A stretch of DNA of 33,757 bases, taken from assembly GCA_014189675.1 (NCBI GenBank), contig DVAE01000035.1, positions 1 to 33,757 on the forward strand, given 5' to 3'. A program made the translations under genes and the position numbers. Origin of the DNA: Candidatus Undinarchaeales archaeon SRR5007147.bin71 (GTDB taxonomy: Archaea; Undinarchaeota; Undinarchaeia; Undinarchaeales; Undinarchaeaceae). The notes below the pieces were generated by a model that was not told the origin of the DNA, ran no database searches, and saw nothing but the letters and a program-made list of their open reading frames with translations. Every line of letters starts with the position of its first letter. Position 1 is the stretch's first letter. Below are positions 821-15,700 of the stretch, in pieces.

Positions 821-1063
821 ATGAAACTGTACATATACGAAACATGCCCCTACTGCATGAAAGTCAGAAATACAATGAAGGAGCTTGGCTACGAGGAAGG
901 TAAAGATGTCATTCTTCTTGATGCCAACAAAGAGGAAAACGCCAAGGAACTCATAGAACTCGGTGGAAAGCTCCAAGTTCCCTTCCTAATAGATGGAGAG
1001 ACTATGATGTATGAAAGTTCTGACATAATGGAGTACCTGCGTGAAAAGAAAAATGAAAATTGA
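821..1063 (+). CDS. Glutaredoxin-like thiol-disulfide oxidoreductase
   Basis: An 80-residue protein with a complete thioredoxin fold of glutaredoxin type. The redox motif CPYC is at residues 9-12, the cis-Pro motif VPFLI near residue 53, and an ESSDIMEYL segment resembles the usual glutathione-contact region. Expected to reduce protein disulfides or mixed disulfides in the cytoplasm; the physiological reductant cannot be read from sequence. The ATG starts 5 nt after the tRNA-Gln 3' end with no room for a separate promoter or Shine-Dalgarno, so the mRNA is probably freed by tRNA 3' processing. It overlaps the next gene by 11 nt. Confidence 0.88.
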   Translation: MKLYIYETCPYCMKVRNTMKELGYEEGKDVILLDANKEENAKELIELGGKLQVPFLIDGETMMYESSDIMEYLREKKNEN

Positions 1064-2129
1064 TGTAGAGGCTATTTGGGACGCCGTAGAAATGCCCAAA
1101 CCTCTCCGAAGGCACTGTAAAACGGTCAAAAAAAGCTGTGACAGAGTCGTAAAGGCTTTGGAAGCTAGAGGCATTTATCCTGACCGTGAAATTGTAAACT
1201 ACGGTGCTCTTCTCCATGATGTCGGGAGAGTCATCGATGGAGGTGTAAGACAAGGTTTCGAAGGTTACAAGATACTTCTTGAACTCGGTGTCCCTGAAGA
1301 AGTTGCACTCTGCGCAAGAAACCACGTCGGTTCAGGAATCCCCAAAGAAGAAGCAGTTGTAAAAGGACTGCCTGAGGAAGATTTCATACCTGAAACACTC
1401 GAGCAAAAAATAGTCGCATACGGAGATAATCTGGTGGCCTTTGATAAAATAACAAGCTACACAGAATTCAGAGCCGGTTTTGTGGAAAAATTCGGAGAAG
1501 TTTCAACACAGGTTGAAATGAGCGACCTACTCAATTCTGAGCTGGCTGATTTCATAAGTCGTGATGAAATGCTAAATGCTGAACAAGCTTCCGAAATTCC
1601 TGTCCGCAAGCTTATGGATAATGTCGGAAAAGGTCTCGCAGAAATTCTTGACAAAAGATTCGGAGTCGAAGGAAAAAAAATAGCTATTTACTGCGGTCCC
1701 GGAAATAATGGAGGAGACGGCTATTCGGCAGCGCTTTATCTGAAGGAAAAGGGAGCAAATATAGAAGTTCTCTCCTTTGGAGAACCACACAGCCCTGAAT
1801 CAAAAGAGTTTAAATCCCTCTCTCTTGAAAAAAAGACAAATATTGCAGCCGTTCTTAGATCAAAGGATATTGAAAGCATAAAAGCCGATATAATTATTGA
1901 CTGTCTTCTGGGAACTGGCTCAGAAGGACCTGTAAAAGATCCAATAAAAAGCGCAATATCTAAAATAAACAATTCAAAAGCAGTGATAGTTTCTGTTGAT
2001 CTTCCTTCTGGTATAGGTACCAATGTCCACGTAAAACCCGACCTGACTGTGGCAATTCACAAAATAAAAAGAAAAATGGTCGGCTTCGGAAAAGTTGGCG
2101 ATACAATACTCCTCAATATAGGTCTTTAG
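1053..2129 (+). CDS. Fusion: HD-domain phosphohydrolase + NAD(P)H-hydrate epimerase (YjeF_N/NnrE)
   Basis: The first about 155 residues form an HD hydrolase of the archaeal TIGR00295 kind: H21, the HD pair in ALLHDVGR (H55-D56), a later His in RNHVGSG and an Asp in AYGDNLVAFD. From about residue 160 a YjeF_N domain follows: nucleotide-binding GPGNNGGDGYSAA, IDCLLGTGSEG and SVDLPSGIG, ending in a short C-terminal strand. This domain epimerises damaged (R)-NAD(P)HX to the repairable S form. The ADP/ATP-dependent dehydratase half (NnrD) is absent here. I chose ATG 1053; the longer frame begins with GTG at 1041 inside the glutaredoxin gene. The HD substrate is unknown; the fusion suggests metabolite repair. 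Confidence 0.82.
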   Translation: MKIDVEAIWDAVEMPKPLRRHCKTVKKSCDRVVKALEARGIYPDREIVNYGALLHDVGRVIDGGVRQGFEGYKILLELGVPEEVALCARNHVGSGIPKEEAVVKGLPEEDFIPETLEQKIVAYGDNLVAFDKITSYTEFRAGFVEKFGEVSTQVEMSDLLNSELADFISRDEMLNAEQASEIPVRKLMDNVGKGLAEILDKRFGVEGKKIAIYCGPGNNGGDGYSAALYLKEKGANIEVLSFGEPHSPESKEFKSLSLEKKTNIAAVLRSKDIESIKADIIIDCLLGTGSEGPVKDPIKSAISKINNSKAVIVSVDLPSGIGTNVHVKPDLTVAIHKIKRKMVGFGKVGDTILLNIGL

Positions 2130-2131
2130 AT

Positions 2132-2809
2132 CTAATTTTTCTCAGAAAGAACATAAAGGTCTTCAAAAAGATTTTCCTGAACAAGCTTTACCTTTCTGTC
2201 ATTTGCCAAATGAAGAAGCGGCATTAAAGTGTTTATCATATCTTCCCTAGTTTTCGAAGGTAAAAGGTCGTCAAAAGGTATTTTATCCCCATCACTCCCC
2301 ATTATTTTTTGATAAAGTTCCTCTATCTTCTCAGTTATATCAACTTCGTCAAATACCAGGACAAAGGGCTCCACCTTCACCTTCCTTTCCTTGGGTCGCA
2401 TAGAGACTTCAAGTTTCCCTATAAGATCTTCAAGCGTTATTTTTCGGAGATGCTTTCTCTTAGTTATTAAAGTAAGAAGAGGAACTTCCTCACTTGGTCC
2501 GCTTTCCTCGTCATCGTCTCCAAAGAGGAATTCTTCATCTCCTCCGAGAAGTTCCGCATATGCTTCCCTTTCTTCAGCGTCAACCAACCTGTCAGCTTTC
2601 ATTCTGAGTAGGATCGCCGCGGCCAAAAGAAGCCTGGCCGGAACTTTTAGATCAAACTCCTTCATCTGGTTAATTCTTTCTGTATACTTCTCTGTAAGCC
2701 GAGATATGTCAATATCCCAGGGATCTAAATTTTCCGAGCGAACAATATCCAGAAGAACATATTCCCAGGCTCTCTCACTTTGCAATATTTGGTCCAGATT
2801 AAGCTCCAT
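2132..2809 (-). CDS. scpA: Segregation and condensation protein A (ScpA, kleisin)
   Basis: 225-residue kleisin that bridges the SMC head domains in the chromosome-condensation complex. The N-terminal part has the typical LLDIVRSENLDPWDIDIS and the LLLAAAILLRMKADRL helix. An acidic linker lies near residues 85-105, and the C-terminal stretch beginning FDDLLP forms the winged helix that binds the other SMC head. The start codon overlaps the smc stop in TAATG, so the pair is one operon with coupled translation. No scpB is next to it, which is common in archaea. It ends 2 nt from the stop of the convergent HD-NnrE gene. Confidence 0.92.
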   Translation of the reverse strand: MELNLDQILQSERAWEYVLLDIVRSENLDPWDIDISRLTEKYTERINQMKEFDLKVPARLLLAAAILLRMKADRLVDAEEREAYAELLGGDEEFLFGDDDEESGPSEEVPLLTLITKRKHLRKITLEDLIGKLEVSMRPKERKVKVEPFVLVFDEVDITEKIEELYQKIMGSDGDKIPFDDLLPSKTREDMINTLMPLLHLANDRKVKLVQENLFEDLYVLSEKN

Positions 2810-5298
2810 TAATTTATTTGTCCTCCCTTTTCTTCCAGTTCTCCCATGTCCATACCGACAAGCTGGGAGGTCCCTCCATCAGTCATTGAAACACCAAATA
2901 GTCTGTCTGCTTTTTTAATGACAGCATTATTGTGACTGACCAACAAAACCTGAGAATCTTTCATAATATCCGTTAGAAGATTTATGAAGCGCATTGAATT
3001 GTTTTGGTCAAGTGCGGCATCAACTTCATCAAGAACATAGAAGTGCGCTGGCTTGTATCTCTGCAGAGCGAAGATGAAAGCCAGAGCTGTCACAACCTTT
3101 TCCCCTCCGCTGAGAAGTTCAAGACTTGTGATTTTCTTCCCTGCGGGGCTTGCCTCTATATTCAGACCTCCAGAAAGAGGGTCCTCATCATTTTCAAGAT
3201 ACAATCTTCCCTCTCCCTTCATAGATAGTCTGGGGAAAATTGTGCTGAATTCCTCTGAAACTTTATCAAAGACTTTCATAAATACATCTTTCTTTTTTAG
3301 CTCAATATCTTCTATGAAATTAAGAACTGCATTTCGTTCATCCTGTAACTTTGTAAAGCGCTCATTAAAGGATTCAAAATCAGAAAGAGAAGTTTTGTAC
3401 AAGTCTATAGCTTTCATATTTACAGGCTCTAACTTTTCCATCTGCCTTTTTATTGTAGAAAGAGTCTTCTCCATTTTGTCAGAATCTATCTCCTGCATCT
3501 CTCGACCCTCAAATTTTTTCATACTTATCTGTAAATCAGTAAGTCCGGCATCCACTCTGGCCTTTTCTATTCTAAGATCACCAATGGATCTTCTGGCATT
3601 GTCACGCTGGGAAGATAAATCATCTCTTTTAACCTTAAGGCTGCTTATCTCTTCGAGAAGTGTTTCTCGCTCTTTCTGAAATCCTTCAAAATCCTGACCA
3701 AGTTGCTCAGACTGTACCTGTTTATGTTTCAGTTCTTTTTCAATCTCAGAAGTCTGCAGTTGTAGCTCCCCTATTTCATCCAGAAGCTTGTCCCTACTCT
3801 TTACATACTCATCTATTTCTGATGTAGCAGTTTTTCTTCTCTTCTTGAATCCTCCAGTTATTGCTCCGCTCCTCTCAGCCACATCTCCGTCGAGCGACAC
3901 CATTCTCATCTTCCCTATGAGACTCTTTACCTCTTTTAGGCTCTTGACAATATAGGTATTTCCAAGAACATAGCTGAATACATTGCTGTAGCGCTCATCA
4001 CAACTTATGAGCTTCCTGGCCGGACCTACTATTCCACTTCCACTTCTTGGCTCGGGCTTGGGACCTCGCATCTTATTAATTGGGAGGAAGGTTGCTCTTC
4101 CCATTTTTTCAGATTTCAGGAACTTGACACATTTTATAGCAGTGTCCTCATTTTCAACAATAATAAAATTGTTTCTGCTCCCAAGAGCTGATTCAATAGC
4201 TACTGCGTATTTCTGATCCACTGTAAAGAGTGATCCAACTGTTCCATAAACTCCATCTACCTCATCCTTCAGAGTATTGCAAATAGCACTTGTCCTCTCG
4301 CCACTCATAGACTGAAGCTTTGCTATAAGTCCGTCGAGGTGAGATATTTCTGACTGTTTTGACTCAGTCTTACTACCATTAATGGAAATTTGCCCGCTAA
4401 GGTGCTCTATCTCCGTAGATATATTGACACGATCTTCCCCTCCTTCTTTTATGAGTTTTGAATCTATATCAGAAAGGTGTTCTTCTTTGCTATCAAGATT
4501 TGAGCCTGTCTGTGAGTATTCCTTTTCTACTTCTGAAAGCTTTGCCTCCTCAGACGATAACTTCTCCTTGAAGCGGGCATCCTCCTTCTCAATATTCTTA
4601 AGTTTTGTATAGAGTAGATTCGCCTCAGTTTCGGAGAGCTCGTCTTTAAGAGAAAGATAAGTTTCCGCATCCTCTTTCTCCTTCTTTAGTCCGCTAAGAT
4701 GCTTCTTCCGCTCCCCCATCACTATAATAAGTTCTTTTACACGTGATTCTACCACATCGAGATCTTTTTGAGCCTTCAACTTTTTATCATCATATTCAGA
4801 TATCCCTGAAATATCATCAATTATCTGGCGCCTTCCTATAGGATCCATATCAATAAAATTCGTAACATCTCCTTGGAGGATTATATTATGCCCCTCTGGA
4901 TCAAAATCAGAAAAGGACAGCAAATCAACAATCTCAGTCCTCGTAACTTTCTTATTATTTATCCTGTAACTCATGGTCCCTTTTTGTGTGAGTCTTCTGC
5001 TTATGCAGACCTCATCCTCATCATAAGGGAGCTTCTTTAAAGAATTATCAAGAATCAGGGAAACTTCTGTTCTTGTAGCCGGTTTCTTCCCCTTCCCTCC
5101 GTTGAAAATTAACTGAGTCAGCTTTCCGGCCCGCATGGATTTTGCTGAGGTCTTTCCAAGAACAAAACAAATAGCATCGCTTATATTTGATTTTCCGGAG
5201 CCGTTTGGACCAACTACTGCTGTGAATCCTTTAGAAAGTGGAATAGATAATCTCTTATCAAAAGACTTGAAACCCTCAAGCTCTAGTCGTTTTATCAT
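2809..5298 (-). CDS. smc: Chromosome segregation ATPase SMC, short-armed
   Basis: Complete SMC of 829 residues. Order: N-terminal ATPase with Walker A GPNGSGKS (30-37) and ILQGDVTNFIDM; first coiled coil (about 170-340); hinge (about 345-485, from VDGVYGTVGSLF to SGAITGGF); second coil (about 490-685); C-terminal ATPase with signature LSGGEKVVTALAF (near 730) and Walker B FYVLDEVDAALD (near 755). Typical prokaryotic SMCs have about 1150-1200 residues, so each arm is roughly 100-150 residues short while heads and hinge are intact. No frameshift is needed to read it. A TTTAAG element near 5329-5334 is placed for a start just before the ATG. Partner ScpA is downstream. Confidence 0.95.
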   Translation of the reverse strand: MIKRLELEGFKSFDKRLSIPLSKGFTAVVGPNGSGKSNISDAICFVLGKTSAKSMRAGKLTQLIFNGGKGKKPATRTEVSLILDNSLKKLPYDEDEVCISRRLTQKGTMSYRINNKKVTRTEIVDLLSFSDFDPEGHNIILQGDVTNFIDMDPIGRRQIIDDISGISEYDDKKLKAQKDLDVVESRVKELIIVMGERKKHLSGLKKEKEDAETYLSLKDELSETEANLLYTKLKNIEKEDARFKEKLSSEEAKLSEVEKEYSQTGSNLDSKEEHLSDIDSKLIKEGGEDRVNISTEIEHLSGQISINGSKTESKQSEISHLDGLIAKLQSMSGERTSAICNTLKDEVDGVYGTVGSLFTVDQKYAVAIESALGSRNNFIIVENEDTAIKCVKFLKSEKMGRATFLPINKMRGPKPEPRSGSGIVGPARKLISCDERYSNVFSYVLGNTYIVKSLKEVKSLIGKMRMVSLDGDVAERSGAITGGFKKRRKTATSEIDEYVKSRDKLLDEIGELQLQTSEIEKELKHKQVQSEQLGQDFEGFQKERETLLEEISSLKVKRDDLSSQRDNARRSIGDLRIEKARVDAGLTDLQISMKKFEGREMQEIDSDKMEKTLSTIKRQMEKLEPVNMKAIDLYKTSLSDFESFNERFTKLQDERNAVLNFIEDIELKKKDVFMKVFDKVSEEFSTIFPRLSMKGEGRLYLENDEDPLSGGLNIEASPAGKKITSLELLSGGEKVVTALAFIFALQRYKPAHFYVLDEVDAALDQNNSMRFINLLTDIMKDSQVLLVSHNNAVIKKADRLFGVSMTDGGTSQLVGMDMGELEEKGGQIN

Positions 5299-13488: not shown

Positions 13489-13818
13489 TTAGTCCTGCAC
13501 GGAAAGTATTGCTTTTGCTATATCATTCCCAGAGCTCTTGAGAGCTTCACGAGCTACATCTTCAGAAACACCAGTCTGCTTAACCACCATTTCAATATCA
13601 GACTCACTGGGTTCGGACTGTCCTTCAGAAACTGTGCCTGATATCTGGAAACTATCCTGCCCTTGCATGTTCATCTTTGCAACCTGTGGGTCTATGATTG
13701 TTATCTGACCGCCATCTCGGAGCTTTATCAGAACTTCCTCAGCGTCTATTTCATCGACGCTCATTCCCATTCTCTTCATTGCTTTCTCAAGCTGTTTTGG
13801 ATTTAGATTTGGAAGCAC
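13489..13818 (-). CDS. nac: Nascent polypeptide-associated complex protein (archaeal alpha-NAC)
   Basis: 109 residues. Homodimeric ribosome-associated chaperone that shields emerging chains. The N-terminal basic NPKQLEKAMKRMGM segment contacts the ribosome; the NAC barrel runs from EEVLIKL to ISGTVSEG; a C-terminal UBA domain (about 70-109) has the typical DIEMVVKQTGVSEDVAREALKSSGNDIAKAI. The start is GTG at 13818, preceded by GGGTG; no ATG would keep the conserved N-terminus. The first 32 nt overlap the end of dnaG in another frame. Confidence 0.92.
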   Translation of the reverse strand: MLPNLNPKQLEKAMKRMGMSVDEIDAEEVLIKLRDGGQITIIDPQVAKMNMQGQDSFQISGTVSEGQSEPSESDIEMVVKQTGVSEDVAREALKSSGNDIAKAILSVQD

Positions 13819-15229
13819 TTTTCTTCACCCCTTTTTCTTTCTTAACTGCACTCTTCTTTACGACTGGTTTTTTCTCAGCCTTTTTATCCTTTGCCACGGG
13901 TTTTGGTTTCAGTGTTTTTCGTTCTGCCTTAGCCTTAGGAGTCTCAGAGCTCTTAGGGCTACCACTACGTTCCTTGTTCTTCTCTATTATATGTCTAAGG
14001 AAGGTATAATCCATAGCAAGAACACCAGGCCTCTTCTTCAGGAATCTTGGCTTTATAGAACCAATTATGAAGTTTATCCCCCTGTCTGATGCCTCTGTTA
14101 CCATTGTTTGCTCAAGCGGTCCGTCTACAAGAATTCCCTGGTACTGGTCTTCAGAAAGGTTTTTTATAACCTCTTTCAAATCTCCTTTTGGAATACTCCC
14201 CGCTTTCTTGAATTTTGAGCCTGTTTTCTTCAGAAGAAAAGCGTCTCCACTTCCTCTAAAATCTTCGGTCACGAGCTTGTTAAGAGCTTCCATCTCAGGA
14301 GTTATCTCTATCTGAGGTCTTGGTCTGTCATCCCTTCTTCGATCTCTTCTGCGGTCTCCTCTTCGTAAGTCCCTTCCCTTTGGAGCTTCTCTCCTTGGAG
14401 AACGCCCCTTTCCAAGAAAAACATCAAGTGGAACCTGACTTCTAAGAGCTTTCAGTATCTCTTTTTGTGTAATTTCTTCTACTTCAGTACCATTTGGAGC
14501 CACTGCGACATTTACAATATCTATAAGGTTTGTCAGTGCCTTCAATATCAAAATTCCTCCACGGTCTCCATCGAGAAATACACTTACCTTCTTACCTTTA
14601 CAAAGATCTTTTAGAGATTCAGGAACTTTTGTTCCTCCTGTGCTAAGGCAATTTCCAATACCTCCTTTTAGAAGGTTCAGGACATCTGCCCTTCCTTCAA
14701 CAAGGATTATCTCACTTGCATTCTCTACATCAGGACCGCCAGAAAGTTTGTCAGGACCGTAATCCTTTATTTCGCCGGTTTTTATTGCTGTCCGAACACG
14801 TGAAGAAAGTTCCTGTGATTCTGGAACACCCGCTCCAAGTTTCTCAAGAAGTGCCTGGGCTCTATCTACAACGTAGTCCCTTTTGGAAGACCTTACGTCT
14901 TCAATAGCCTCTACAGATATTGTAGAATTACTTGGGCCTATTCTTTCAATTGTCTCAAGACCGGCCGCAATTAGTGCGGTGTCTTCTTTGCTCAAGGAAG
15001 TTGGAATTTCTATCTTACCTTCAGTCTTACCGTCTTTTGTTTCCAGTTCGACCTCTATTCTTCCAATTCTTCCGTTTTTTTGAAGTTCGCGCAGGTCAAG
15101 ATCCTCTCCTAGCAAACCTTCTGTCTGCCCAAAGACTGCCCCGATTACGTCCGGGCGCTCAACCACTCCAGTAGTGGAAATTTTAGCGCGAACCATATAT
15201 TTTATTGCTGCTACTCCGATTTTTGCCAT
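13787..15229 (-). CDS. dnaG: Archaeal DnaG primase (Toprim), exosome-associated
   Basis: 480 residues. DnaG-type primase of archaea, also known as a core exosome subunit. The N-terminal domain has DVIGAVFGQTEGLLGEDLDLRELQKNGRIGRIEVE. The Toprim domain starts at ILVEGRADV (E178) with FLDGDRGG further on. An Arg/Asp-rich linker and a TOPRIM-distal domain containing ILVDGPLEQTMVTEASDRGINFIIG follow, then a Lys-rich disordered tail of about 50 residues. I chose ATG 15229, which has AGAGGT six bases upstream; the longer frame begins with TTG at 15259. The Lys-rich tail overlaps nac by 32 nt. Confidence 0.92.
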   Translation of the reverse strand: MAKIGVAAIKYMVRAKISTTGVVERPDVIGAVFGQTEGLLGEDLDLRELQKNGRIGRIEVELETKDGKTEGKIEIPTSLSKEDTALIAAGLETIERIGPSNSTISVEAIEDVRSSKRDYVVDRAQALLEKLGAGVPESQELSSRVRTAIKTGEIKDYGPDKLSGGPDVENASEIILVEGRADVLNLLKGGIGNCLSTGGTKVPESLKDLCKGKKVSVFLDGDRGGILILKALTNLIDIVNVAVAPNGTEVEEITQKEILKALRSQVPLDVFLGKGRSPRREAPKGRDLRRGDRRRDRRRDDRPRPQIEITPEMEALNKLVTEDFRGSGDAFLLKKTGSKFKKAGSIPKGDLKEVIKNLSEDQYQGILVDGPLEQTMVTEASDRGINFIIGSIKPRFLKKRPGVLAMDYTFLRHIIEKNKERSGSPKSSETPKAKAERKTLKPKPVAKDKKAEKKPVVKKSAVKKEKGVKKSASKSKSKTA

Positions 15230-15291
15230 TTGTTTACCTCTTTTTCGGGCAGCGCTCAAAAGGAAAAGTATTCTGGAGACTTCTTTAGAGA

Positions 15292-15579
15292 TTACTCTTC
15301 GTTCTCTCTATCGTTTTTAGGGGAGAATGTTTTTCTAATTTCTTCCCATGTTGAGTCTGACTCCAGCACCTTTATCCTTGTGGTGCCTCCCGATATGATG
15401 TGAATGGAAGATTTTCTTCCAGTTGATTTCCGTATGGATTTTGTGAGAAACGAAAGGAGTTCTTTATTCGCTTTTCCCTCTTTCGCTTCGGATTGAACCC
15501 ACACAGTGAGTTCATGAGATCCGGTCACCTGTGCTCTCTTAGCGGGCGACCGCGGCTTTACTTTTACAGTAAACCTCAT
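15292..15579 (-). CDS. DUF167/YggU family protein
   Basis: 95 residues of the DUF167 family: N-terminal VKVKPRSPAK, TVWVQSEAKEGKANKELLSFL and the RKSSIHIISGGTTRIKVLE strand are characteristic. The fold is known from structures but the function is not. The ATG is only 4 nt downstream of a long RNA helix (15584-15671), with no separate ribosome site. Its synthesis may therefore depend on folding or processing of that RNA. Confidence 0.88.
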   Translation of the reverse strand: MRFTVKVKPRSPAKRAQVTGSHELTVWVQSEAKEGKANKELLSFLTKSIRKSTGRKSSIHIISGGTTRIKVLESDSTWEEIRKTFSPKNDRENEE

Positions 15580-15583
15580 GATT

Positions 15584-15671
15584 AGTACCCAACTCGTTGC
15601 TAACTCCCAACTTCATAGACTGGCTAAGGCCGTCCTCCGTTGAGTAACCCTCGCAACGAGAATTGGGTACT
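15584..15671 (-). ncRNA. Compact structured RNA or leader element before the DUF167 gene
   Basis: The ends form a 17-pair helix: AGTACCCAACTCGTTGC (15584-15600) against GCAACGAG (15653-15660) and TTGGGTACT (15663-15671), broken only by a two-base bulge. Read on the minus strand, an asymmetric loop (GAGGGTTA against AGTTA), a six-pair stem CTCAAC/GTTGGG and a hairpin GACGGC-CTTA-GCC-A-GTC lie inside. A TATA box at 15691-15700 places the transcription start at the helix 5' end. The minus strand is therefore the likely sense. The stacked stems with an internal pocket recall H/ACA guide RNA, but no clear ACA box follows. It could instead be a leader controlling DUF167. Confidence 0.6.
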
Positions 15672-15690: not shown

Positions 15691-15700
15691 TATAAATACC
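15691..15700 (-). promoter_or_regulatory. TATA box for the structured RNA
   Basis: Minus-strand GGTATTTATA is centred about 24 nt from the 5' end of the long helix at 15671. This supports separate transcription rather than readthrough from the CBS gene. Confidence 0.55.

Follow-up and report, generated by a model that had tools for sequence, protein, structure and literature searches.

Immediately upstream of a DUF167 gene on the minus strand of a contig from Candidatus Undinarchaeales archaeon SRR5007147.bin71 lies an 88-nt stretch that folds into a strong hairpin. An earlier note on this DNA left open two readings of the hairpin: an independent small RNA with the stem-pocket-stem layout of an H/ACA RNA, or a leader in which the start codon of DUF167 is hidden. 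The question is which of these the locus encodes. Analysis of the window (the whole stretch of DNA considered here, 33,757 nt) upholds the first reading, on the strength of rRNA complementarity and covariation: the element is very probably a single-hairpin guide RNA of the H/ACA type, with a predicted pairing to helix 69 of 23S rRNA that would direct pseudouridylation of U1915. Helix 69 is a functional centre of the ribosome and carries pseudouridines in all domains of life. The window RNA would be a single-hairpin guide for this helix in a small archaeal genome.

Fold and conservation of the element

Refolding reproduces the structure that had been drawn by eye, a 17-bp helix interrupted by one two-base bulge (UU at 15662-15661), with two further stems nested inside it (Table 1). 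The fold reaches -38.5 kcal/mol (z -4.9), and none of 200 dinucleotide shuffles folded as well. The hairpin had also been described as unlike familiar RNAs, with an Rfam search suggested. A tRNA search gave no match, ruling out tRNA identity, and an Rfam scan of the window matched the hairpin to no family, the HgcG/Pab40 model RF00064 included. A repeat or mobile hairpin was likewise ruled out, the own genome having a single copy.

Table 1. Features of the guide RNA locus; positions are those of the window
Feature	Position	Strand	Basis
dnaG-like Toprim protein gene	13787..15259	-	Toprim matches
DUF167 (COG1872/YggU) gene, directly downstream of the hairpin	15292..15579	-	Pfam PF02594
Predicted ACA-less H/ACA-like guide RNA, whole	15584..15671	-	fold, covariance model matches, target match
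Outer extension, 3' strand UUGGGUACU, at the expected ANA box position	15584..15592	-	no ANA there in G000, G001, G002, G005
Lower stem, 3' strand GCAACGAG	15593..15600	-	fold; covarying pairs
Predicted 3' guide AGUUA; GUUA pairs with 23S UAAC	15601..15605	-	target match
Upper stem and its apical loop; residues GGA ... GAA resemble a kink-turn	15606..15644	-	fold; residues kept in most relatives
Predicted 5' guide GAGGGUUA, complement of 23S UAACCCUC	15645..15652	-	target match
Lower stem, 5' strand CUCGUUGC	15653..15660	-	fold; covarying pairs
Outer extension of lower stem, 5' strand AGUACCCAA	15663..15671	-	fold
Candidate TATA box TATTTATA	15691..15698	-	sequence; region nearly identical in two congeners

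The hairpin is present in two congeners, archaeon UBA55 and Euryarchaeota archaeon ARS1358 (G001 and G002), with 96% identity over the aligned stretch. Its 68-nt core differs at two positions in each congener (66/68 identical in G001), compared with 77% identity between the DUF167 proteins of G001 and the window. Both core differences belong to a single exchange of C-G for U-A that leaves the upper stem paired at this position. Of the 17 helix pairs, about 15 are kept in the congeners, the outermost two or three being gone. In the order-mate UBA543 (G005, from another family), the hairpin stands at the same place before DUF167, with changed stems and an unchanged pocket. The TATA box seen ahead of the helix by the earlier note lies about 20-27 nt before 15671, and this stretch is almost unchanged in the two congeners (25/26 and 26/27 bases). 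In G001, much more divergence than in the core is seen at the end of the CBS gene and in the 30 nt that precede the TATA region. The guide RNA may be transcribed from this TATA box, a candidate promoter that could also serve the DUF167-dnaG transcription unit.

The pocket and helix 69 of 23S rRNA

Complementarity to rRNA was among the checks proposed for the GAGGGTTA/AGTTA loop. The own 23S rRNA is absent from the assembly, so the target was read in the congeners; helix 69 of G001, G002 and G005 reads UAACUAUAACCCUC. The match is perfect, with 12 of 12 Watson-Crick pairs. When the pocket GAGGGUUA / AGUUA is set against UAAC-[UA]-UAACCCUC, GAGGGUUA complements UAACCCUC at every position, GUUA does the same for UAAC, and the U-A between them is left unpaired. 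This is the bipartite complementarity around an unpaired UN that an H/ACA pocket requires. The helix 69 site scores 24 in the rRNA loci of G001, G002 and G005, where the next best site scores at most 16, and none of 2000 shuffled guides reached the score of the pocket in the G001 rRNA locus. A match to GAGGGTTA in G030 (L006) was discarded, its surroundings looking like rRNA by eye. Separately, a helix 69-like sequence at G003:C34:1771-1793, AACTCTGACCTTC, departs from all others, perhaps because of contamination or because the rRNA itself is divergent.

The most likely target predicted from this pairing is U1915 (E. coli numbering, after PMC2584109). The pocket would base-pair with helix 69 and leave U1915-A1916 unpaired at its top, while Cbf5 would sit on the lower stem, held via Nop10 and via L7Ae at the putative kink-turn, and would isomerise U1915 to pseudouridine; U1917 might be a second site. 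Cbf5, Nop10 and L7Ae are all encoded in the own genome. In the window and most relatives, the upper stem sets GGA against NNN-GA-A, an arrangement that, read by eye, fits a kink-turn. Counted by hand, this stem reaches the second G-A pair after nine layers, not the 10 given as productive in PMC4652768, which speaks against a guide. We infer that the hairpin is expressed as a discrete RNA, assembles into an RNP and brings about modification of U1915.

A different use of the same pocket is conceivable, in which the RNA guides mainly U1917, or serves U1915 and U1917 by alternative pairing, as has been proposed for both positions in the case of Haloferax HP2 (PMC2584109). The guides of several relatives are consistent with this, since their GAGAGUA matches the target starting at A1919 and pairs more weakly at 1917-1918. 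However, the 5' guide in the window pairs with U1917 itself and frees exactly U1915-A1916, and Pab40 modified the 1915 equivalent in vitro but not the 1917 equivalent (PMC2584109). A guide aimed mainly at U1917, or at both positions by alternative pairing, is an unlikely description of the window RNA.

Relatives, covariation and gene order

A first covariance model, built from only three sequences (window genus and G005), found matches in 29 of 297 archaeal genomes at E <=0.05 per genome. Up to about 15 chance matches could be expected at this threshold, so the weak matches needed further support, which came from pair covariation, the fit of guides to their own helix 69 and the presence of dnaG downstream. 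A second model found matches in 93 of 394 archaeal genomes at E <=0.001. A covariance search over relatives had been suggested in the earlier note, and it yields two-sided changes at 19-20 of 21 pairs. Paired cells amount to 84.9-87.5%, against at most 48% in slid controls, and none of 500 shuffles was as good. These counts lean towards structure because A3 and A4, the alignments behind them, had been fitted to the model. The guide-target test is independent of that fitting: across 15 genomes, each genome's guide suits its own helix 69 better than swapped guides do (0 of 20000 permutations).

The first model, built without HgcG, also matches hairpin III of an HgcG (Pab40) RNA, with E 0.008 for that genome; the locus of this RNA carries a moeA gene as well. 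Guides of the type of this hairpin (Pab40.3) are spread over many archaeal families, and Rfam gave no report of them in the loci scanned.

The gene order around these matches bears on the idea of a 5' leader acting in cis, which would fold over the start region of DUF167 and control translation of this gene. The DUF167 ATG (15579-15577) does lie 4 nt past the helix, as had been pointed out, and the gene is directly downstream of the hairpin in G000, G001, G002 and G005. Against a leader, DUF167 adjoins the hairpin in only 4 of 29 matched loci, the hairpins of most relatives lying elsewhere, and the pocket is conserved as a complement of 23S rRNA. With no conserved association, hiding the start codon of DUF167 was rejected as the main function of the hairpin, and this explanation is very improbable, although the hairpin may have a secondary cis effect on DUF167.

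Relatives of the guide RNA are linked by gene order to dnaG instead. The order in the window is guide RNA, DUF167, dnaG, and in G003, G004 and many distant archaea it is guide RNA followed by dnaG. Of the 29 matched loci, 16 have dnaG downstream on the same strand, most weak matches included; leaving out the window genus, the count is 13 of 26, with one further divergent case. The guide RNA precedes dnaG in the window (13787-15671, minus strand) and in L056, L057, L059, L066, L067, L069, L071-L075, L077 and L125. Some copies of the hairpin have no dnaG nearby, so a role as dnaG leader is not general. A published link between dnaG and H/ACA RNAs, or a report of such a gene order, was not found, which is weak evidence of absence, 'H/ACA' being poorly searchable. 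Elsewhere in the window, an SMC-like protein of only 829 aa (2809-5298, minus strand) suggests, by eye, shortened coiled-coil arms, and an ORF at 1041-2129 (plus strand) apparently fuses an HD-type N-terminal part to a YjeF_N-like domain, also by eye.

The extended lower stem and known guide RNAs

An ANA box at 14-16 nt is a defining feature of box H/ACA RNAs, which have a lower stem of 7-9 bp and an upper stem with a kink-turn or K-loop for L7Ae. No ANA box is present at the expected spot in G000, G001, G002 or G005, where the window genus reads UUGGG and G005 reads CUUGU. The lower stem of the window RNA has 8 bp, followed by the UU bulge and 7-9 more pairs, and so extends beyond 7-9 bp. Since the ANA box was looked for and is absent, we class the element as an H/ACA-like guide that is ACA-less and homologous to Pab40.3, rather than as a canonical box H/ACA RNA.

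The absence of an ANA box in the window genus and G005 could also mean that the element is a decayed H/ACA RNA that has lost both its ACA box and its function. This is scarcely credible given a core conserved at 66/68, an intact pocket, a conserved extension helix and an exchange between congeners that preserves base pairing. For a functional guide, the extended helix may replace the missing ACA box or shield the RNA ends.

Among 39 aligned matches, the lower stem is followed within 0-5 nt by an ANA triplet in 28, most often at 2 nt, and in 19 of these the triplet is ACA. Family f17 (G080, G264, G018, G060), unrelated to the window genus, is likewise without ANA, and its long lower helix differs in sequence. 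In family f32 (L054, L063, L064, L068, L127, L129, L131), an outer helix of about 8-9 bp encloses the ACA box in an internal loop; the outer helix of L131 differs in sequence from that of the other members, with pairing kept. We tentatively suggest that there could be a recurrent class of archaeal guides without an ACA box, having arisen at least twice (window genus, f17), in which a lower stem of about 17 bp anchors Cbf5 or protects the RNA ends. Natural ACA-less guides offer material to test how Cbf5 is positioned.

Atypical guides are known from Pyrobaculum, where about 14% of H/ACA-like RNAs (sR203-sR210) are without an ANA or NCA box (PMC4652768). They resemble the window RNA in being atypical H/ACA guides, but their lower stem is truncated, whereas that of the window RNA is lengthened. 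Haloferax HP2 (Hvo2), with reported folds of 9/7/9, 11/8/9 or refolded 10/6/9 (PMC4652768), is a guide for 23S 1956/1958, which correspond to E. coli 1915/1917, and a reported homologue of Pf7-stem III (PMC2584109). It shares its target positions with the window RNA, the two being likened by description only. Another close parallel is with the third hairpin of HgcG/Pab40 (RF00064; Pab40.3, Pf7-stem III), which shares the pocket (AGGGUUA / AGUUA) and the 23S target region of the window RNA, and which is reported to guide L2016, the equivalent of 1915 (PMC4652768, PMC2584109). Pab40.3 comes last in a tandem of three hairpins and has AUA after it, whereas the window RNA is a single hairpin with no ANA and an extended lower stem. 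Judged by sequence, it is only this third hairpin of HgcG/Pab40 that is homologous to the window RNA.
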